Assembly (NCBI GenBank): GCA_003054495.1
Contig: CP028514.1
Coordinates: forward strand, 236,501-300,500
Source: Carboxydocella thermautotrophica
GTDB lineage: Bacteria; Bacillota; GCA-003054495; Carboxydocellales; Carboxydocellaceae
Reading direction: 5' to 3'
DNA: 64,000 bases
Positions within the stretch are counted from its first letter, which is position 1. The number at the start of each line of letters is the position of its first letter. The notes under the pieces were generated by a model. The model was not told the DNA's origin. It worked only from the letters and a program-made list of their open reading frames with translations, and ran no database searches. The position numbers and the translations under genes are program-made. This document shows positions 15,040-63,384 of the stretch, in pieces.

Positions 15040-15116
15040 TGGGGTGACCGATGGGAGTCGAACCCACGCATGCAGGGGCCACAACCCTGTGCCTTAACCA
15101 CTTGGCGACGGTCACC
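15040..15116 (-). tRNA. tRNA-His (anticodon GTG), CCA encoded
   Basis: Cloverleaf with a GGTGACC/GGTCACC acceptor stem, the extra 5' G of tRNA-His, anticodon loop TTGTGGC, T-loop GTTCGACTC and encoded CCA. It is the last gene of the cluster. Confidence 0.93.
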
Positions 15117-15125
15117 ATAAATAAA

Positions 15126-15202
15126 TGGCGCGCCCGGCAGGACTCGAACCTGCGACACTCTGCTTAGAAGGCAGATGCTCTATCCAGCTGAGCTACGGGC
15201 GC
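15126..15202 (-). tRNA. tRNA-Arg (anticodon TCT), CCA encoded
   Basis: Acceptor GCGCCCG/CGGGCGC, anticodon loop CTTCTAA, T-loop TTCGAGT and encoded CCA. It reads AGA and AGG codons. Confidence 0.93.
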
Positions 15203-15225
15203 AGTCTATATGCAAATAAAATAAA

Positions 15226-15301
<76 letters not shown>

Positions 15302-15308
15302 ACATAAA

Positions 15309-15385
15309 TGGCGCGCCCGGCAGGATTCGAACCTGCGACCACCAGATTCGTAGTCTGTTACTCTATCCAGCTGAGCTACGGGCGC
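15309..15385 (-). tRNA. tRNA-Arg (anticodon ACG), CCA encoded
   Basis: Acceptor GCGCCCG/CGGGCGC, anticodon loop CTACGAA. The first anticodon base A would be edited to inosine by TadA to read CGU, CGC and CGA. Confidence 0.93.
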
Positions 15386-15393
15386 ATGTTGTA

Positions 15394-15468
15394 TGGAGCG
15401 GAAGACGGGATTCGAACCCGCGACCCTCGCCTTGGCAAGGCGATGCTCTACCACTGAGCCACTTCCGC
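15394..15468 (-). tRNA. tRNA-Gly (anticodon GCC), CCA encoded
   Basis: Acceptor GCGGAAG/CTTCCGC, anticodon loop TTGCCAA, encoded CCA. Confidence 0.93.
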
Positions 15469-15480
15469 ATTGTATAGTTC

Positions 15481-15598
15481 GCTTGATTATAAACTTCGCA
15501 TTACTGCGTCAGCTGTCGCTGCGGCATCCTCGACGTACCTCCAGTACGCCTCCGGTGCCTCGCTTCAGCTTCCTTGTACTGCTCGTTTCTAATCAAGC
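15481..15598. repeat. Palindromic interspersed repeat between two tRNA genes
   Basis: A 118-bp unit bounded by inverted ends GCTTGATTATAAAC and GTTTCTAATCAAGC (13 of 14 positions pair). The inside is a partial long hairpin centred on GTAC-CTCCA-GTAC. It codes for nothing convincing and lies between tRNA-Gly and tRNA-Lys. It looks like a REP/MITE-type unit; copy number elsewhere cannot be judged here. Confidence 0.6.
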
Positions 15599-15619
15599 TC
15601 AATGAGCAAGCTGACGATT

Positions 15620-15652
15620 TCGAACCTCGCACCTCGAACTTCGAACTTCGAA
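15620..15652. repeat. Short TTCGAACCTC-type repeat array, copy 2
   Basis: Units of CGAACCTCG and CGAACTTCG in tandem, matching the array at 15001-15036. The two copies flank the first five tRNA genes and the palindromic repeat. Confidence 0.6.
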
Positions 15653-15655
15653 TAG

Positions 15656-15731
15656 TGGTGAGCCATGCTGGACTCGAACCAGCGACACCCTGATTAAAAG
15701 TCAGGTGCTCTACCTACTGAGCTAATGGCTC
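15656..15731 (-). tRNA. tRNA-Lys (anticodon TTT), CCA encoded
   Basis: Acceptor GAGCCAT/ATGGCTC, anticodon loop CTTTTAA, encoded CCA. Confidence 0.93.
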
Positions 15732-15741
15732 ACATTGGAAA

Positions 15742-15816
15742 TGGCTGGGGTGGCTGGATTCGAACCAACGCATGGCGGAGTCAAAGTCCGCTGCCTTACC
15801 GCTTGGCTACACCCCA
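15742..15816 (-). tRNA. tRNA-Gln (anticodon TTG), CCA encoded
   Basis: Acceptor TGGGGTG/CACCCCA, anticodon loop CTTTGAC, encoded CCA. Confidence 0.93.
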
Positions 15817-15823
15817 GCGGAGA

Positions 15824-15902
15824 TGGCGGAGCAGACGGGATTCGAACCCGCGACCTCCTGCGTGACAGGCAGGCATCCTAGACCAGGCTAGACCACTGCT
15901 CC
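15824..15902 (-). tRNA. tRNA-Asp (anticodon GTC), CCA encoded
   Basis: Acceptor GGAGCAG/CTGCTCC, anticodon loop CTGTCAC, encoded CCA; 79 bases with a slightly long D-arm. Confidence 0.9.
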
Positions 15903-15907
15903 GCGTA

Positions 15908-15983
15908 TGGTGGGCGATGACAGGATCGAACTGCCGACCCCCTGCTTGTAAGGCAGGTGCTCTCCCAGCTGAGCTAATCGCCC
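15908..15983 (-). tRNA. tRNA-Val (anticodon TAC), CCA encoded
   Basis: Acceptor GGGCGAT/ATCGCCC, anticodon loop CTTACAA, encoded CCA. One T-stem pair is G-T. Confidence 0.92.
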
Positions 15984-15987
15984 ATGA

Positions 15988-16063
15988 TGGTGACCCCTAC
16001 GGGATTCGAACCCGTGTTACCGCCGTGAAAGGGCGGTGTCTTAGACCACTTGACCAAGGGGCC
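15988..16063 (-). tRNA. tRNA-Glu (anticodon TTC), CCA encoded
   Basis: Acceptor GGCCCCT/AGGGGTC, anticodon loop CTTTCAC, encoded CCA. First gene of the ten-tRNA transcript. Confidence 0.92.
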
Positions 16064-16263: not shown

Positions 16264-16396
16264 ACCTTATCAAGAGTGGTGGAGGGACTGGCCCGATGAA
16301 ACCCGGCAACCGGCTGGTAAACCAGCGTCCTGGTGCCAATTCCTGTAGATAAGGCGGTTTTGTGCAAACAAGACCTGCCTTGGGCAGGTTTTTTTC
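16264..16396 (+). promoter_or_regulatory. SAM-I (S-box) riboswitch with terminator
   Basis: The aptamer carries the S-box core AGAGTGGTGGAGGGACTGGC and CCGATGAAACCCGGCAACC, closed by P1 (CCTTAT 16265-16270 with ATAAGG 16349-16354). An intrinsic terminator follows (ACCTGCC/GGCAGGT, 16373-16389, then T-run). AAGGCGGT (16351-16358), which includes the 3' side of P1, can pair with ACCTGCCTT (16373-16381) to form an antiterminator. SAM binding should therefore favour P1 and termination, switching metI-metC off. Confidence 0.95.
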
Positions 16397-17588: not shown

Positions 17589-18734
17589 ATGGAACGCGAT
17601 TTAAAGGAAAAAAGTCTTTACGTTCATGCGGGTCCGCGGGGTGATAAATATACAGGTGCCGTAAATGTCCCTGTTTATCTCACCAGTACCTTTGACCAGG
17701 AGGAATTGCCTGCTCGCAAACCCTATGAATACAGCCGGGGCCAGAACCCTACCCGGGAAGCTCTGGAACAGGCTATTGCCAGACTGGAAGGGGGTAAATA
17801 CGGTTTTGCTTTCAGCTCCGGGATGGCGGCTATCTCTACAGCTCTCTGTTTATTCGCGACCGGGGAGCATGTACTGGTGACGGAAGATTGTTATGGTGGT
17901 ACTTACAGGATTTTGACCAAATTCTTTGCCCGCTATGGGGTGGAATTTGATTTTGTGGATACTACCGATCTGGAACAGGTAAAAAAGGCGATAAAACCCA
18001 ATACCAGAGGGATTTTTGTGGAATCGCCCAGCAATCCCCTGATGCGGATTACCGACCTGGCGGCTTTGAGCCAGCTGGCCCGGGAAAAGGGGCTGATTAC
18101 CCTGATTGATAATACCTTTGCTACCCCTTATTTGCAAAAACCCCTGGCGTTAGGCATTGATGTGGTGATCCACAGTGCGACCAAATACATCGGGGGACAT
18201 AGTGACCTGCTGGCGGGTCTGATTGTGGTCAATGATGAACAGCTGGCCCGGCAAATCAAGCTGGTTCAGATGGCCTTTGGGGCAGTTCTCAGTCCTTTTG
18301 ACTCCTACCTGACCTTGCGGGGGCTAAAAACCCTGGCTATTCGCATGGAACAGCAGCAAAGCAACGCCCGGGAACTGGCCCTCTGGCTGCGGGATAGAAA
18401 AAAGGTGAAAAGGGTGTATTATCCCGGCTTCAGCGACCATCCCGGTGCGGAAATTCACCAGCGCCAGGCCCGGGGACCAGGAGCAGTGATCACCATTGAC
18501 CTGGGCAGTGAAGAAGAAGCCATTGCCTTTATTAATTCTACCAGCATTCCGGTCATCGGGCCTAGTTTGGGCGGAGTAGAAACCATTATCACCCATCCTT
18601 TTTCCATGTCCCATGCCGGTATTCCGGCGGAAATCAAGAACCGGCTGGGAATTACGCCGGGACTGGTGCGAATTTCGGTAGGGATAGAAGAAGTTGAGGA
18701 TTTGAAACAGGATTTTTCAGCTCTGGACCGATAA
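17589..18734 (+). CDS. metC: Cystathionine beta-lyase (or gamma-lyase), MetC type
   Basis: Second PLP enzyme of the operon, 381 aa. It has YLTSTFDQ, YEYSRGQNPTREALE, AFSSGMAAI, TEDCYGGTYRI, ESPSNPLM and the PLP lysine in HSATKYIGGHSD (near 197), then PSLGGVETIITHP and MSHAGIP. Position after metI under one SAM riboswitch indicates cleavage of cystathionine to homocysteine in methionine synthesis. Sequence alone does not separate beta- from gamma-lyase, so the product call rests partly on operon context. Confidence 0.85.
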   Translation: MERDLKEKSLYVHAGPRGDKYTGAVNVPVYLTSTFDQEELPARKPYEYSRGQNPTREALEQAIARLEGGKYGFAFSSGMAAISTALCLFATGEHVLVTEDCYGGTYRILTKFFARYGVEFDFVDTTDLEQVKKAIKPNTRGIFVESPSNPLMRITDLAALSQLAREKGLITLIDNTFATPYLQKPLALGIDVVIHSATKYIGGHSDLLAGLIVVNDEQLARQIKLVQMAFGAVLSPFDSYLTLRGLKTLAIRMEQQQSNARELALWLRDRKKVKRVYYPGFSDHPGAEIHQRQARGPGAVITIDLGSEEEAIAFINSTSIPVIGPSLGGVETIITHPFSMSHAGIPAEIKNRLGITPGLVRISVGIEEVEDLKQDFSALDR

Positions 18735-18771
18735 TTGCAATTATTTTTAGTCACGTGTCTGCCAGAAAAAA

Positions 18772-18798
18772 CTCCCCTGAACTTTCTGTTCAGGGGAG
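18772..18798 (-). terminator. Terminator of the c-di-GMP-controlled mini-gene (also behind metC)
   Basis: An 11-bp stem CTCCCCTGAAC/GTTCAGGGGAG. On the minus strand it is followed by six T, so it mainly ends the minus-strand gene; it may also stop metC transcription. Confidence 0.8.
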
Positions 18799-18803
18799 CC
18801 TTG

Positions 18804-19013
18804 TTAGCTCTCAAATAACACATTGGCATTATAACCGGAACCGCCCGTTTGCCGCATCAGGTCTTTGAAAGTCTTGGGCTGAACGGTACGGATGGGAATT
18901 TGTTTGCCGCAGACCGAGCAAATAATGCGCCGTTTCCCCGAAATCGGCTCTCTCTTGGTGATGAGTGTGTCCATTGAGACATGAAGAAATCCACATTTGC
19001 ATTCCAGTTCCAT
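18804..19013 (-). CDS. 69-residue Cys-containing protein under a c-di-GMP riboswitch
   Basis: A small soluble protein with two Cys pairs: CKC at the N-terminus (residues 5-7) and CSVCGK near 32-37, plus a basic middle (KREPISGKRR). It could form a small zinc-ribbon fold. There is no signal peptide or membrane segment. The ATG follows GGGGGTG at good spacing, with its own riboswitch and promoter upstream and a strong terminator downstream, so this is a real monocistronic gene despite its size. I do not recognise a named family; c-di-GMP control suggests a role in surface or motility lifestyle. Confidence 0.75.
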   Translation of the reverse strand: MELECKCGFLHVSMDTLITKREPISGKRRIICSVCGKQIPIRTVQPKTFKDLMRQTGGSGYNANVLFES

Positions 19014-19036
19014 ATATTACACCCCCAAATGAAAAA

Positions 19037-19066
19037 GCCTTTCCAGGAAGCCTCCAATGGAAAGGC
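19037..19066 (-). terminator. Riboswitch expression-platform terminator
   Basis: On the minus strand GCCTTTCCA and TGGAAAGGC form a 9-bp stem followed by TTTTTC. The 5' arm CTTTCCA can instead pair with TGGAAAG just after the aptamer core (19091-19097), giving an antiterminator. Confidence 0.8.
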
Positions 19067-19095
19067 GGAGCAGTCTGTGGCTCTCTATCTCTTTC

Positions 19096-19191
19096 CAGCT
19101 TCGGCAACCTGGCAATCATAGCCTCCGGAGCGAGGCCTTAGACCCATGGCTTTGCGCCCCCACCTTTCGATGGGTTTGCCTTTATCGACTG
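19096..19191 (-). promoter_or_regulatory. c-di-GMP-I (GEMM) riboswitch
   Basis: Read on the minus strand, the aptamer shows the GEMM-I landmarks: AGGCAAACC, a GAAA tetraloop hairpin (CCCATCGAAAGGTGGG), GGCGCAAAGCC, the tetraloop receptor halves CTAAGGCC and GGCTATG around a GCCTC/GAGGC stem, and the closing GCCAGGTTGCCGAA. A short P1 (CAGT/GCTG) closes it. It is followed by a terminator with a competing antiterminator, so c-di-GMP should control read-through into the 69-residue gene. From the overlap of P1 with the antiterminator strand I predict an OFF switch, with low confidence. Confidence 0.92.
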
Positions 19192-19211
19192 TGTGTAGTA
19201 TTTCACTTATT

Positions 19212-19240
19212 AATTTAGCACTATTTGTAACAAGTGTCAA
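19212..19240 (-). promoter_or_regulatory. SigA promoter of the c-di-GMP riboswitch transcript
   Basis: Minus-strand TTGACA (19235-19240), exactly 17-nt spacer, TAAATT (19212-19217); start about 15 bases before the aptamer. Confidence 0.8.
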
Positions 19241-19279
19241 CTCTTAATTGGTGAAAAATGACGAAAAAACTCAAATGGC

Positions 19280-19308
19280 TTGCCAAGGCAGGGTTTAACT
19301 GTTAAAAT
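19280..19308 (+). promoter_or_regulatory. SigA promoter of the SCIFF locus
   Basis: TTGCCA (19280-19285), 17-nt spacer, TAAAAT (19303-19308), about 40 bases before the SCIFF start. Confidence 0.7.
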
Positions 19309-19346
19309 TATTTAGGGAAAATCAATAATGTGAGGAGGATATTCTA

Positions 19347-19487
19347 ATGGCTAAGCATATTAAAACTCTGGCTGTAAAAAATCTGCAAAATACCGTTAAA
19401 ACCGGGGGTTGTGGCGAATGCCAGACCAGCTGTCAATCAGCTTGCAAAACTTCCTGCACAGTTGGTAACCAGGTTTGTGTAAGATAA
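19347..19487 (+). CDS. scfA: SCIFF ranthipeptide precursor (six Cys in forty-five residues)
   Basis: A 46-residue peptide starting MAKHIKTLAVKNLQ, with a basic leader and a core holding six cysteines at 22, 25, 29, 33, 37 and 44 (CGEC, CQSAC, CKTSC, CVR end). This is the SCIFF signature: the most widespread clostridial ribosomal peptide, whose cysteines are linked to alpha or gamma carbons of other residues by the radical SAM maturase encoded next door. The ATG follows TGAGGAGGAT. A terminator-like hairpin between precursor and maturase would keep precursor mRNA in excess. Biological role of the family is still unsettled (quorum or redox roles have been proposed). Confidence 0.95.
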   Translation: MAKHIKTLAVKNLQNTVKTGGCGECQTSCQSACKTSCTVGNQVCVR

Positions 19488-19558: not shown

Positions 19559-20911
19559 TTGTTGCATAAATTTACCCTCTTTGGCAGTAGGATTGTCTAT
19601 GATGTGGCTTCCGGCTCCGTCCATGTAGTGGACGAGCTGACCTGGCGGATTCTGGACTACTGGCCGGTTGCAAGTCGGGAGGAGATTGGAGCCAAATTAG
19701 GGCAGGAATATAGCCAGGAAGAAATCGAGGAAGCGGTCCGGGAGCTGGAGGAATTAAAAAAGGAGGGTCTATTGCTGGCAGAGGACCAGGCTCCGGCTGC
19801 TTTGCATTTGCGCCAGCAATCGGTAGTAAAGGCCCTTTGTCTCCATGTGGCCCATGACTGCAATTTGCGCTGCCGTTATTGTTTTGCCGGCACCGGGCCT
19901 TTTGGCGGGGACCGTACTCTGATGAAGGAGGAAACAGGGCGTCAGGCCATTGACTTCTTGCTTAAAGCCAGCGGAAAGCGGCAGCAGGTGGAAATTGACT
20001 TCTTTGGCGGGGAGCCGCTGCTGAATTTTCCGGTAGTCAAAAACCTGGTGGCATACGGCAAAGAGGCGGCCGCGGCAGCCGGGAAGAAAATCAAATTTAC
20101 TTTGACTTCCAATGCCCTGTTGCTAACTGAAGAAATTGAACGGTGGTTGAATGAAGAGGAAATGGCAGTGGTTCTAAGCCTGGATGGGCGTCCGGAGGTC
20201 CATGATCGCATGCGCCCCCGGCTGGATGGCAGTGGTTCTTACCAGCGTACTGTTGACCATATCCTGCGTTTTGTTAACAGCCGTAACCAGGAAAATTATT
20301 ATGTGCGGGGAACTTTTACCGGCTTACAACCGGATTTTGCGGCAGATGTCATTTACATGGCTGACCTGGGGATTAAACACCTGTCGGTAGAACCGGTAGT
20401 AGGGGCGCCGGAAGAGGATTATGCCCTGAAGGAAGAGTATCTACCACAATTGCTGGCAGAATATGAACGGCTGACAGAGGAGTTTTTGCGGCGCCAGGAA
20501 ACAGGGCAGCCCTTTACCTTTTTCCATTTCAACCTGGATCTAACGGGTGGCCCTTGTCTGGCCAAACGGCTATCCGGTTGTGGTGCGGGCCATGAATATC
20601 TGGCCTGCGACCCGGAGGGCAACCTCTACCCCTGTCATCAATTTGTCGGCAATAAAGATTTCTGGCTGGGAACAGTAGATACAGGAGTAGAAAAACCGGA
20701 GCTGGTCCAGCGTTTTCAGGAGGCCCATGTCTTCAACAAGCAGAAATGTCAGAATTGCTGGGCCCGCTATTTATGCAGCGGTGGTTGCCATGCCAGCAAC
20801 TACCACAGCCATGGCCATTTGCTGGAACCATATGAAATGGGATGTGCCCTGGAAAAGAAGAGACTGGAATGCGCTATTTATATTCAGCTAAAAACTGCAG
20901 GTCTTGTTTAA
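19559..20911 (+). CDS. scfB: SCIFF peptide maturase, radical SAM/SPASM
   Basis: A 450-residue enzyme that installs thioether crosslinks in the SCIFF peptide. Residues 1-85 form a peptide-recognition region (HVVDELTWRILDYWP). The radical SAM motif is CNLRCRYC (Cys 101, 105, 108), followed by FFGGEPLLNF and LSLDG. The C-terminal SPASM part carries further clusters with CGAGHEYLAC, CHQF and the CQNCWARYLCSGGCHAS ligand block. It starts at TTG 19559 behind GAGGTGG. Its stop codon lies in the 17-bp target duplication of the IS that follows, so the IS landed just past the coding region. Confidence 0.93.
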   Translation: MLHKFTLFGSRIVYDVASGSVHVVDELTWRILDYWPVASREEIGAKLGQEYSQEEIEEAVRELEELKKEGLLLAEDQAPAALHLRQQSVVKALCLHVAHDCNLRCRYCFAGTGPFGGDRTLMKEETGRQAIDFLLKASGKRQQVEIDFFGGEPLLNFPVVKNLVAYGKEAAAAAGKKIKFTLTSNALLLTEEIERWLNEEEMAVVLSLDGRPEVHDRMRPRLDGSGSYQRTVDHILRFVNSRNQENYYVRGTFTGLQPDFAADVIYMADLGIKHLSVEPVVGAPEEDYALKEEYLPQLLAEYERLTEEFLRRQETGQPFTFFHFNLDLTGGPCLAKRLSGCGAGHEYLACDPEGNLYPCHQFVGNKDFWLGTVDTGVEKPELVQRFQEAHVFNKQKCQNCWARYLCSGGCHASNYHSHGHLLEPYEMGCALEKKRLECAIYIQLKTAGLV

Positions 20912-53188: not shown

Positions 53189-54318
53189 GCTGGGTGCGAC
53201 TGAAAGCGATAATATGGAAAGAATTTATTCAAATCAGCCGGGACCGACCCAGTTTGGCCATGATTTTTGGGGTACCGGTTATGATGATGCTGCTTTTTGG
53301 TTATGCCATCAGTACTGATGTGGAAAACATCGCGACCCTGGTCTGTGATCAAAGTAAAACCAGAGCCAGCCGGGAGCTGGTGAGTGCCATGGCCAATACC
53401 GGTACCTTTGATTTACGCTACTGGACCGAAAATCCCGGGGAAGTCCGCCGTTATCTGGATGGCGGGATAGCCAGGGTGGCTCTGATTATTCCTCCAGATT
53501 ACAGTAAGCGTTTAGCCCGGGGAGAAATGGCCCAGGTTCAGGTTTTGCTGGATGGATCTGATCCGCTGGTGGCCCGCACTGCCCTTTCGGCAGCCCAGAT
53601 GCTGGCCCAGTCTCTAAATCTCAATCTGGTTACCCAGCGTCTGGAACGGCAGGGAGCCGGGCCGGGGTTGAATTTGGCTCTGGATATGAGGACGAGAGTT
53701 TGGTATAACCCTAATCTGGAAAGTCTGCGGTTTAATATCCCGGGGCTAATGGGTCTGGTTTTGCAGAACATAACAGTGATTCTCACCGCTTTTGCCCTGG
53801 TGCGGGAGCGGGAACGGGGGACTCTGGAGCAAATCATTATTACTCCCATCAAGCCGGTGGAACTGATTATCGGCAAACTGGTTCCTTATGTATTTATCGG
53901 CTTTTTTGATCTCTTGCTGGTACTGGCGGTGGCGGTTTTCTGGTTCGGGGTGAAAATTTCTGGCAGCGTGGCGTTGCTGCTGGCGTTAGCTACTATCTTT
54001 CTGGCCTGTGCGCTGGGGATGGGTATGTTTGTTTCTACCGTTGCCCGAAACCAGCTGCAGGCTATGCAGATGGCCTTTTTGATTCTGTTGCCCAGTATTC
54101 TTTTGTCCGGGTTTTTGTTTCCCCGGGAATCCATGCCTAAAATCATCTATTGGATTGGGCAGGTTCTACCATTAACCTACTTTTTGCAGATTGTCCGCGG
54201 CATCGTGCTGCGGGGAGCGGATTTTTCCCATCTCTGGCAGGTATCATTCTGGCTGGCTGTGCTGACGGCAATCATCTGTACTCTTTCCGTTTTGCGCTTC
54301 CGTAAACGGCTGGATTAA
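53185..54318 (+). CDS. ABC-2 exporter permease (YbhS/YbhR-like)
   Basis: A 377-residue membrane protein with one helix near the N-terminus, a large extracytoplasmic domain (about 45-170) and five further helices. It has RERERGTLEQIIITPIKPVELIIGK and the conserved FLFPRESMP loop of ABC-2 drug/lipid exporters. Only one permease gene is present, so it probably works as a homodimer. The stop codon overlaps the stop of the convergent HD-GYP gene by 4 bases. Confidence 0.9.
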   Translation: MSWVRLKAIIWKEFIQISRDRPSLAMIFGVPVMMMLLFGYAISTDVENIATLVCDQSKTRASRELVSAMANTGTFDLRYWTENPGEVRRYLDGGIARVALIIPPDYSKRLARGEMAQVQVLLDGSDPLVARTALSAAQMLAQSLNLNLVTQRLERQGAGPGLNLALDMRTRVWYNPNLESLRFNIPGLMGLVLQNITVILTAFALVRERERGTLEQIIITPIKPVELIIGKLVPYVFIGFFDLLLVLAVAVFWFGVKISGSVALLLALATIFLACALGMGMFVSTVARNQLQAMQMAFLILLPSILLSGFLFPRESMPKIIYWIGQVLPLTYFLQIVRGIVLRGADFSHLWQVSFWLAVLTAIICTLSVLRFRKRLD

Positions 54319-55472
54319 AAGAGATTGAGCAAAGCCTCTACCACCCTGGCGTCAAAGCGGCCGGCAACCGCTTCCTGGCGCAAGAGGTGGTAAATTTTTT
54401 CCCTGGGCAGGGCAGCCCGATAGGGACGGTCATCAGCCAGGGCCTGATAATAATCAGCTACTGCCAGGATACGAGCGGGCAAGGGCAGTTGGTCTGCCCG
54501 CAGACGGGAAGGATAGCCACTGCCATCCAGTTTTTCGTGATGAGCGGCGGCCCAGAAGGCCAGCTCCTCCAGACCGGGGATTTCCATCAACAGCCGTTCG
54601 GTATAATAGGCGTGGGCAATGATGCGGCTGTATTCCTGGGGGGTGAGCTGGTCTGGCTTATCCAGGATAGCCGAGGGGACAGCCAGCTTGCCCAGGTCAT
54701 GTAAGAGACCAGCCAGATAGAGCTGACGGCACTGAGCGGTTGGCAGGCCCAGGGTCTGGCCCAGGTAGAAGGCGGTATTGGCAACCCGGCGGCTGTGGGT
54801 GGCGGTATAGGGGCTTTTGGCATCCACCAGGTCAGCGAAAAGGAGGGCTAAATGTTCCAGGGATGCTAGCTGGATATCCTGTTCAAAAACCTGGCTGCGG
54901 CGGCGGATGGCCTGGGCTAAATTGCGATGGGCCAGGTCATAATAAACACGAGGTTCCTGCAAAAGTTCCAGACAGGCATCGGCTACTACAGGAGCCAGGC
55001 GTTTGCCTTTTTCCTTTTCCACAAAGGCGACAATCCGTTCCTGCACCGGTAGCAGGTCATAGTCCTGGCCAAACTGGTTTTCAATCTGATCGGCCAGGAA
55101 AAGGAGCTGGGCTTCTATGGGAATCTCCTCACCGCTCAAGCCCAGTGGGAAACCGCTGCCATCCCAGGCTTCGTGATGAGCAGCGATAATAGGAGCGATT
55201 TCAGTTAACAAAGGGAGCTGGGTGGACCAGCGGGCCCCGGCCAGAGGGTGAGATTCTACCGGGAGCTGAGCATTGACTTTGCCGATATCATGGAGCAGAC
55301 CGCCATAAAAAACCAGGCGCAGGCGGTCAGGAGCAAGTCCCAGTTTTTCGCCGGTGCGTAAGGCCAGATAGGCTACCCGCTGGGCGTGCTCCAGTTTTTT
55401 GTTTTCCGCCAGGTCCAGGGCCAGGGAGAAGGTACTGATTAAAGTGAACAAAGATACTTTCCAGCTATCCAT
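54315..55472 (-). CDS. Tandem HD-GYP domain protein
   Basis: A 385-residue protein with two HD-GYP phosphodiesterase modules. The first (about 20-190) has HAQRV, LLHDIGK, HH and AWDGSGFP; the second (about 215-380) has HSRRVAN, LLHDLGK, HHEKLDGSGYP and PARILAVADYYQAL. Both retain the HD and HH metal ligands, so both may degrade c-di-GMP. No membrane or sensor domain is visible. The ATG at 55472 follows AAAGGAGTGG; the frame extends 23 codons upstream without a ribosome site. Confidence 0.88.
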   Translation of the reverse strand: MDSWKVSLFTLISTFSLALDLAENKKLEHAQRVAYLALRTGEKLGLAPDRLRLVFYGGLLHDIGKVNAQLPVESHPLAGARWSTQLPLLTEIAPIIAAHHEAWDGSGFPLGLSGEEIPIEAQLLFLADQIENQFGQDYDLLPVQERIVAFVEKEKGKRLAPVVADACLELLQEPRVYYDLAHRNLAQAIRRRSQVFEQDIQLASLEHLALLFADLVDAKSPYTATHSRRVANTAFYLGQTLGLPTAQCRQLYLAGLLHDLGKLAVPSAILDKPDQLTPQEYSRIIAHAYYTERLLMEIPGLEELAFWAAAHHEKLDGSGYPSRLRADQLPLPARILAVADYYQALADDRPYRAALPREKIYHLLRQEAVAGRFDARVVEALLNLF

Positions 55473-55511
55473 TTTTTTGCCACTCCTTTGCAGGTATTTG
55501 CTGCCTGATGA

Positions 55512-55563
55512 AGAATATCTTAACATAAAAACTTTTGACAATCTATGATTTTTTCTATATGAT
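55512..55563. promoter_or_regulatory. Divergent SigA promoters with overlapping -35 boxes
   Basis: Plus strand: TTGACA (55535-55540), 17-nt spacer, TATGAT (55558-55563), driving the FprA operon. Minus strand: TTGTCA (55536-55541), 18-nt spacer, TATTCT (55512-55517), driving the HD-GYP gene. The two -35 boxes share five bases, so polymerase can occupy only one at a time. Confidence 0.65.
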
Positions 55564-58911: not shown

Positions 58912-60377
<1,466 letters not shown>

Positions 60378-60987: not shown

Positions 60988-63384
60988 ATGAAACTGAATC
61001 TGAGGACCAGGTTAACGCTGATTCTAGCGGTGCTTGTCTTCTTTTCCTGTGGTCTGACGGGCTGGCTGGCGGTCTATCGGGCTAAATCAGTGATTGAAGA
61101 CGAAATGCTGGACCAGGTTAAACGGATATCCTTGCATTTGGACAAAAAAATAGAAGGGGATTTTGAAATGATCATGGCCCGCCTGGGAGTAATTAATGCT
61201 GCCGAAGGGACCAAGTGGCAGGAACTCAAGGCGGAATTGCAACGGCTGGTCACTGCTGAGCTGGTAGGCAGCGCAGATGAGATGGGAGCAGCCTACCATG
61301 TGGAAGGTCGGGACTGGCTGGTGGCGGTAAAGGAACCGCCGGGCGGAGAACTGTTTTTGCGCCAGTTATTGCGCAGGGTACATCAGCTGGAAAACAAAAA
61401 CATCTGGGAAGAACACCTTTTTACTGAAAATGGTGTACAGATGATTGTGCGTCCCCTGATCCGTAATGACCAGATAATTGGTCATGTCTTTGTCTGGCGA
61501 ACTATTGAACCCATTGAAAATCTGGTCGATAAACTGAAAACCGAAATTTTACTGGTTTTTATTTTAACCTTTGTTATGGGCCTGGCGGGGGTTTTCTGGT
61601 TATCCCGGGCCCTGCTGACAGATGTAGACAAAATCAAGGAAGGGATTCAGAGGTTGAAATTTGATTTGCATTCTCCTCTGCCCAAAGTAGGAAGTGAGCT
61701 GGAGGAGATTGCGGCTGCTATTGAAACCCTGTCGGTTTCCCTCCTGAACTTGCAGGAAGCCAGCAAGGGGCTGGTGGCTTCCCGCTATCTGGACGAAACC
61801 CTGCAACGAGGCCTGGAAATGATAGAAAGAGTATTCGGGGCCAAATATGCCGCTATTTTCCTGTATGATGAAAAGGCTGATGAGCTGAGCATTAAAGCAT
61901 CCATTGGCTTAAGCAGGGAATATGTCAAAACCGTAAGGATGAAAAAAGGGGAAGGTTATAGCGGCAGGGTCATGTTGACCGATTTGCCATCTGCAACCGA
62001 TGATTTGCGCAGGGATGAACGCACTGTCTGGGTGCAGATGGTACGCTTTGAAGGGATCGTTTCCCTGCTGGTGGTACCTTTAAGGGGCAAGGGGGGGCTG
62101 CTGGGAACCATTGAGGTCTATACCAAACATAAACACACTTTTACCCCCAGTGAGATCAGTCTGCTTTCATCTCTGGCTCACCAGATCGGGTTATCGGTGG
62201 AAAATGCCATGCTCTTTGAGGAAATGCAAACCAGAGCAATTACCGACCGTTTAACTGGTTTATATAACCAGAAGCAATTTTATGAACTACTGCAATCAGA
62301 GATTGCGGCTGCGCAGTTATATAAAAAGCCTCTTTCCTTGTTGATGCTGGATGTCGACTTTTTCAAGCAGTACAATGATACCTTTGGCCATCCGGCCGGG
62401 GACCGTCTGTTAAAGGAATTTGCCCGTATTCTGGTGGAGAATGTGCGACCTGATGATATTGTCGCCCGTTACGGGGGTGAGGAATTTGCCATTATCCTGC
62501 GGGAGACTTCCCTGGAACAGGCTCTGGACATTGCGGAACGCATACGCCAGAAAGTGGCTGATTCCAGGTTTGAAGGCCGGCTCCAGCAACCCAGTGGACG
62601 GATAACCTGTTCCATCGGGATTGCCCAGTATCCCGTTCATGCCAAAACCCTGGAAGACCTGGTCAAACGGGCAGATGAAGCTCTGTACCGGGCCAAGTAC
62701 AATGGCCGTAACCGGGTGGCTTACCACCTGACCTTTATGGATGCTCTGCTGGAGTCTCTGCCGGCGGAAGAGAAAAACAAGCTGGAACGGCTAAAGACTA
62801 TGATTACAGTCATCAATGCCCGGGACCGCTATACTTTCGGGCATAGCGAACGGGTGATGATGCTGGCCTGTAAAGTAGGAGAACGAATGGGTCTGACGGC
62901 AGAACGCCTTAATCTGTTACAACTGGCAGCCTATTTCCATGATATTGGTAAAATGGAAGTAACCAAGGAGATTTTGTGCAAAGAAGGCGATTTAACAGAA
63001 GCAGAATGGGAACAGTTAAAACAACACGCTGTTGCCGGTGGGGCAGTGGTCAAGACCATACCGGTTCTGGCAGAAGCAGCCCTGATTATCCGCCATCACC
63101 ATGAACGCTATGATGGTTCCGGATATCCTGACGGATTGGCGGGAGATAATATACCTCTGGAGGCCCGGATCCTGGCGGTGGTGGATGCCTGGGATGCCAT
63201 GACCAGTACCCGGGTGTTCCGGGAAGCCAAAGGTCCGGAACAGGCTCTGTTGGAAATCAGGGAACAGAGCGGGAAACAGTTTGATCCCCGAATTGTAGAA
63301 ATCTTTACTGCCCTGGTTGAAGGAGGTGAGCTAAATGGCCCAGGTAGTCATCAATGTCGAGGGCATGAGCTGCGGCCATTGTAA
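60988..63384 (+). CDS. Membrane GAF-GGDEF-HD-GYP protein (dual c-di-GMP enzyme)
   Basis: A 798-residue signalling protein. Two membrane helices (about 8-30 and 186-206) enclose an extracytoplasmic sensor; then GAF (about 270-415), GGDEF (about 425-585) and HD-GYP (about 600-775). The cyclase has an intact GGEEF active site and the product-inhibition site RPDD five residues before RYGGEEF. The HD-GYP has FHDIGK, HHHERYDGSGYP and ARILAVVDAWDAM, so both opposing activities look competent. GGGGAG precedes the ATG. The last 50 bases overlap the copZ-like gene. Confidence 0.93.
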   Translation: MKLNLRTRLTLILAVLVFFSCGLTGWLAVYRAKSVIEDEMLDQVKRISLHLDKKIEGDFEMIMARLGVINAAEGTKWQELKAELQRLVTAELVGSADEMGAAYHVEGRDWLVAVKEPPGGELFLRQLLRRVHQLENKNIWEEHLFTENGVQMIVRPLIRNDQIIGHVFVWRTIEPIENLVDKLKTEILLVFILTFVMGLAGVFWLSRALLTDVDKIKEGIQRLKFDLHSPLPKVGSELEEIAAAIETLSVSLLNLQEASKGLVASRYLDETLQRGLEMIERVFGAKYAAIFLYDEKADELSIKASIGLSREYVKTVRMKKGEGYSGRVMLTDLPSATDDLRRDERTVWVQMVRFEGIVSLLVVPLRGKGGLLGTIEVYTKHKHTFTPSEISLLSSLAHQIGLSVENAMLFEEMQTRAITDRLTGLYNQKQFYELLQSEIAAAQLYKKPLSLLMLDVDFFKQYNDTFGHPAGDRLLKEFARILVENVRPDDIVARYGGEEFAIILRETSLEQALDIAERIRQKVADSRFEGRLQQPSGRITCSIGIAQYPVHAKTLEDLVKRADEALYRAKYNGRNRVAYHLTFMDALLESLPAEEKNKLERLKTMITVINARDRYTFGHSERVMMLACKVGERMGLTAERLNLLQLAAYFHDIGKMEVTKEILCKEGDLTEAEWEQLKQHAVAGGAVVKTIPVLAEAALIIRHHHERYDGSGYPDGLAGDNIPLEARILAVVDAWDAMTSTRVFREAKGPEQALLEIREQSGKQFDPRIVEIFTALVEGGELNGPGSHQCRGHELRPL

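Follow-up and report, generated by a model that had tools for sequence, protein, structure and literature searches.

A c-di-GMP-I riboswitch cassette and a small zinc-ribbon-like protein gene with a possible link to anaerobic respiration in Carboxydocella thermautotrophica

The minus strand of the window (the whole 64,000-nucleotide stretch of Carboxydocella thermautotrophica DNA analyzed here) carries a one-gene unit in which a c-di-GMP-I (GEMM-I) riboswitch precedes a gene for a 69-residue protein. The reading that we prefer, to which as a whole we give even chances, is that a c-di-GMP OFF switch governs a one-gene transcript for a zinc-ribbon-like protein that aids or regulates an anaerobic respiratory complex, and that the switch is a cassette copied from the leader of an HD-GYP gene. 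At high c-di-GMP the aptamer would retain its 3' strand, which would block the antiterminator, allow the terminator to fold and turn the gene off, and at low c-di-GMP the antiterminator would form and the protein would be made. If, as seems most likely, the protein has a part in producing or regulating an anaerobic respiratory complex, the switch would therefore couple that step to conditions of low c-di-GMP. The riboswitch class is already known and its target is unusual; what is new, as judged from sequence, is the paralog family, its respiratory neighborhoods and the cassette copy.

Architecture of the unit

The elements of the unit, all on the minus strand, are the following:

19212-19240 (-): predicted promoter, TTGACA-17-TAAATT with extended TG (consensus scan, 10/12 matches)
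19100-19190 (-): c-di-GMP-I (GEMM-I) riboswitch aptamer (RF01051, 86 bits, full length)
19091-19112 (-): antiterminator 5' arms CCAGG, GCC and UGGAAAG, of which CCAGG and GCC belong to the aptamer 3' strand (folding)
19043-19064 (-): antiterminator 3' arms CUUUCCA, GGC and CCUGG, common to the terminator (folding)
19032-19066 (-): intrinsic terminator hairpin and U-run, forming the expression platform (sequence, folding)
19028-19192 (-): riboswitch cassette common to the HD-GYP gene leader at chromosome 804,476-804,563 (blastn, 87.5 %, 168 columns, E 8e-48)
18804-19013 (-): gene for the 69-aa small CxCG..H..CxxCG zinc-ribbon-like protein (paralogs, alignment, codon-position pattern)
18766-18798 (-): intrinsic terminator after the gene, CTCCCCTGAAC-AGAAA-GTTCAGGGGAG, T6 (read in sequence)

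The initial annotation of this DNA had proposed a complete minus-strand unit made up of a canonical promoter, a GEMM-I aptamer with tetraloop and receptor, a terminator with a competing antiterminator (here 19066-19032 and 19112-19091/19064-19043) and one tiny gene, and all of these parts were found. The promoter (19240-19212) is the top-scoring minus-strand site of the window in the consensus scan, and about 20 bases separate its end from the aptamer. By covariance scan, the aptamer is a member of the known c-di-GMP-I class: positions 19190-19100 (-) match RF01051 over model positions 1-87 of 87 (E 1.4e-15 in Rfam), and the score compares with a gathering score of 35. The Rfam alignment marks zero non-standard pairs and contains the GAAA tetraloop in P2, its receptor in P3 and the G preceding CAAA in the ligand pocket, and binding of the ligand is predicted. 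The pocket base that discriminates c-di-GMP from cGAMP, which we take to be the G at about 19179, was mapped by hand with the Vc2 numbering. In PMC6274999, on which this mapping also drew, the base is G in c-di-GMP aptamers and A in cGAMP-sensing variants, and specificity for cGAMP was therefore dropped. The cGAMP-sensing GEMM-I variants of Geobacter, which control cytochrome and pilus genes, belong to the same aptamer class and share with the present case a possible link between cyclic dinucleotides and electron transfer; they differ from it in having A in the pocket and acting as ON switches, whereas the switch described here has G (hand mapping) and is predicted to be OFF.

The start of the 69-codon open reading frame (19013) is preceded by GGGGGTG and its end is followed by the strong hairpin and T6 at 18798-18766 (-), and the sequence therefore points to a one-gene transcript. 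Compared with its closest paralog, the frame is 63/66/39 % identical at codon positions 1/2/3, a pattern that argues for a real protein with a constrained reading frame. Frames of 96 and 66 aa that overlap on the same strand were dropped, as they start inside the aptamer or the terminator.

The protein family and its gene neighborhoods

Searches of Pfam and NCBIfam with the 69-aa protein returned zero matches above cut-off, in line with the earlier remark that it fits no recognized family. Its supposed orphan status did not survive: the genome encodes five paralogous proteins, this one included, and homologs are present in both other Carboxydocellales genomes examined. From these comparisons the family appears small, expanded in Carboxydocella and without a Pfam or NCBIfam entry. 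Its members share the signature C-x-C-G-x2-H...C-x2-C-G, and an alignment of eight Carboxydocellales members has M1, C5, C7, G8, H11, R21, C32, C35, G36 and P46 in all. The four cysteines and H11 thus being invariant, the metal binding suggested in the initial annotation is plausible, and the protein is likely to be a one-zinc ribbon; its matches to zinc-ribbon families of Pfam are all below threshold. Fold prediction from three sequences gives two strands and a helix with a pLDDT of 67, and the model has zero significant matches in the PDB, which leaves the fold unproven. At the sequence level, C2H2 zinc-finger repeats in the PDB were matched, but these were set aside as look-alikes in spacing and composition.

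Scanning the genome contigs with the single 69-aa sequence recovered zero relatives, and a four-row alignment gave back just the two relatives from the order that had been identified before; the family had zero matches in plasmids and no named PHROG. With a family profile (E about 1e-8), distant homologs were reached in another class of the phylum. These CxxCGxEH...CxxC zinc-ribbon proteins of about 51 aa, whose genes have a 2x[4Fe-4S] ferredoxin gene and one of the Fur/PerR type as neighbors, have Cys pairs, H and R that align with those of the 69-aa family, but their first pair is C-x2-C, the shared C-terminal part is absent and their neighbors differ. Most genomes of another class (L033-L042, L046) encode one zinc-ribbon-like protein of 47-54 aa in this ferredoxin and Fur/PerR-type setting; we know of no family name for this protein.

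Surveying the genes around the four other paralogs revealed a recurrent respiratory context. The paralog that has the window protein's C-terminal extension (L015) is directly followed by genes for an Fe-S subunit, NrfD and a TtrA-like molybdopterin subunit; L016 has napA-/napG-like genes upstream and mobA and fdhD downstream; L017 adjoins multiheme cytochrome, ResB-like and CcsA-like genes (cytochrome-c assembly); and L018 has TtrA/TtrB-like genes nearby. For three of the four, a molybdopterin oxidoreductase gene is no more than 4 kb away, and the remaining one is that beside the cytochrome-c assembly genes. The genome has 11 such oxidoreductase genes (PF00384) and about 5 % of it lies within 6 kb of one; for the three of four paralogs falling inside this fraction the binomial P is about 4e-4, a value computed after the pattern had been seen. 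Among the order relatives, two homologs (L024, L025) adjoin a ResB/CcsA-like pair, as judged by sequence likeness to L017, one (L026) is accompanied by a Mo-oxidoreductase, a NarJ/TorD-type chaperone, a ferredoxin and TatA, and a fourth (L102) is divergent and has mobA/fdhD-like genes some way off. As for the window copy, the closest molybdoenzyme gene is 340 kb away. Outside this class, the distant homologs have surroundings unrelated to respiration, and the respiratory link is therefore claimed only for this order. C. thermautotrophica 41T is a thermophilic CO oxidizer with 30 multiheme cytochrome genes and a sister strain that reduces Fe(III) (PMC6085454). Taking these neighborhoods as a guide, our best guess is that the 69-aa protein would have a helper role in anaerobic respiration.

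The initial annotation's further proposal of a c-di-GMP effector received no support, since there is no nucleotide-binding hint in the protein (Pfam and NCBIfam returned zero matches above cut-off to known c-di-GMP-binding domains, such as PilZ), the neighborhoods point to anaerobic respiratory enzymes and, in the genome search with RF01051, no riboswitch turned up near any of the four other paralogs. A different reading of the family keeps the riboswitch and makes the protein a zinc ribbon with a general regulatory role, directed at RNA polymerase, an mRNA or a partner protein; the paralog neighborhoods would then be local targets, and the lone copy would be a trans-acting regulator of motility, pilus or c-di-GMP turnover genes. 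Binding to polymerase or nucleic acids is frequent among zinc ribbons, the lone copy has its switch in common with an HD-GYP gene, in a regulon that includes flagella and pili, and the distant relatives adjoin a Fur/PerR-type regulator and a ferredoxin gene. This reading is possible but clearly the less probable of the two, given that regulator families yielded zero matches and that the close paralogs lie within or beside respiratory gene runs, not beside regulators.

Predicted switching mechanism

The terminator hairpin at 19066-19032 (-) reads GCCUUUCC...GGAAAGGC and is followed by UUUUU. For the unbound leader, the minimum-energy fold is the antiterminator (-59.8 kcal/mol), which disrupts the aptamer 3' strand; aptamer and terminator folded separately sum to -56.0 kcal/mol, ligand energy excluded. 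In these folds the aptamer and the terminator are mutually compatible and each excludes the antiterminator, and the antiterminator, built on the aptamer 3' strand, is hence predicted to be incompatible with the ligand-bound aptamer. The stability of the leader is ordinary for its composition (z -1.5); the case for a riboswitch is carried by the covariance-model match and by arms that exclude each other. Because the antiterminator uses the aptamer 3' strand, a transcription-terminating OFF switch is predicted. The same topology is found in Cd1 of Clostridioides difficile, which is an OFF switch (PMC9262584): the aptamers (RF01051) are alike in sequence and structure, and in both a terminator platform is combined with an antiterminator that takes the aptamer 3' strand. 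Whereas Cd1 and known GEMM-I switches target flagellar, adhesion or turnover genes, the present, predicted switch precedes a lone zinc-ribbon-like mini-protein.

We infer the direction of switching, as the energy gap between the antiterminator and the aptamer plus terminator is small, the folding energy model leaves out the ligand and tertiary contacts, and in the HD-GYP sister leader, which has the same arms, folding favors the terminator at equilibrium and not the antiterminator preferred by the window leader. GEMM-I switches of either direction exist (PMC9262584), and the full-length leader is able to pair around the ribosome-binding site, so that the gene might instead be ON at high c-di-GMP, or be controlled mainly via ribosome access, the protein then belonging to the sessile state. 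We consider this unlikely, because an aptamer that fits with the terminator and an antiterminator that invades the aptamer constitute OFF geometry.

A shared cassette and its conservation

An RF01051 search of the whole genome (a chromosome of 2,690,058 bases and a second contig of 53,067 bases) identified six c-di-GMP-I aptamers. Sequence comparison indicates that the window riboswitch is a near-copy cassette, transplanted between promoters and genes. The cassette, of about 165 nt, comprises aptamer and platform; the aptamers of the window and HD-GYP leaders are 95 % identical, a second comparison of the leaders gave 86 % identity, and the likeness, with the same platform arms, runs to the end of the T-run and stops there, as it does two bases 5' of the aptamer. 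The promoters and coding flanks differ, and the start codon is farther away in the HD-GYP leader. The P3 stem is GCCUC/GAGGC in the window and GCCC/GGGC in the sister leader, changed on both sides and still paired. No other pair among the six genomic riboswitches was found to have a common platform. Likeness to a third riboswitch relative is 0.82 for the HD-GYP copy and 0.79 for the window copy, and there are hints, no more, that the HD-GYP copy is the older one. The protein encoded by the HD-GYP gene carries the motifs HDIGK, HHE and GYP and ends in a HATPase domain; this combination of a phosphodiesterase with an anti-sigma-kinase-like domain (L020, chromosome 804412-804565) is an unusual pairing.

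The remaining four switches precede a Flp-type pilin gene with Tad-like genes, a gene for a transglutaminase-like protein, a gene for a secreted 223-aa protein and a flgB-flgC-fliE-fliF-like run, so that by annotation the other five GEMM-I targets appear ordinary and only the 69-aa gene stands apart. Within the window, two further c-di-GMP turnover genes were recognized by motifs, a tandem HD/HD-GYP protein at 54315-55541 (-) and a GGDEF and HD-GYP hybrid at 60988-63384 (+). In an order relative, a GEMM-I switch (L061, contig C20, 28612-28701) lies before the gene for a secreted CxxCH-motif protein, possibly a cytochrome c, a pairing that again hints that c-di-GMP and electron transfer are connected.

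The unit is present in a second C. thermautotrophica strain, with aptamer, platform and reading frame unchanged from aptamer to stop; over 18701-19330 the two strains differ only at 18711 and 19224. Loss of the small frame where the aptamer is kept, which the initial annotation had named as a counterargument, is thus not seen within the species, both strains keeping both. The two other order genomes have GEMM-I switches and homologs of the protein, never together, and their homologue-bearing contigs contain zero GEMM-I hits; these genomes are drafts, 83-85 % complete, and the absence of the unit is therefore provisional. That the unit arose recently by accident and sees little use, a leader having been copied ahead of a spare paralog with no selected role, would agree with a switch-gene link seen in one species among the genomes examined and with a window paralog away from respiratory loci, but is quite improbable given the intact aptamer, terminator and antiterminator arms, the pairing kept in P3 despite changes on both sides, the identity of leader and frame in two strains and the protein-level constraint on the frame.

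A bolder extension of the preferred reading, which we regard as doubtful, is that in motile cells the mini-protein, freed from c-di-GMP repression, would act on the molybdoenzyme and cytochrome systems of its paralogs; c-di-GMP would then directly switch the biogenesis of respiratory complexes, through an undescribed zinc-ribbon family and a whole cassette transplanted from a phosphodiesterase gene. If the preferred reading is right, support of anaerobic respiration would join the targets of c-di-GMP riboswitches, in a thermophilic CO oxidizer of a metal-reducing lineage, an unannotated protein family would be flagged at molybdoenzyme loci, and the cassette would provide a clean example from nature of a whole riboswitch being copied from one promoter and gene to another.

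Divergent from the riboswitch unit lie the genes for a SCIFF ranthipeptide precursor (19347-19487 (+), TIGR03973) and for its radical SAM maturase (19559-20911 (+), TIGR03974). A functional link with these neighbors was dropped, since such a unit is absent beside the SCIFF loci of two order relatives. The window also contains a cluster of ten tRNA genes at 15043-16063 (-) and two SAM riboswitches, at 16264-16355 and 58912-59016 (+), each upstream of genes for PLP enzymes of Cys/Met metabolism.
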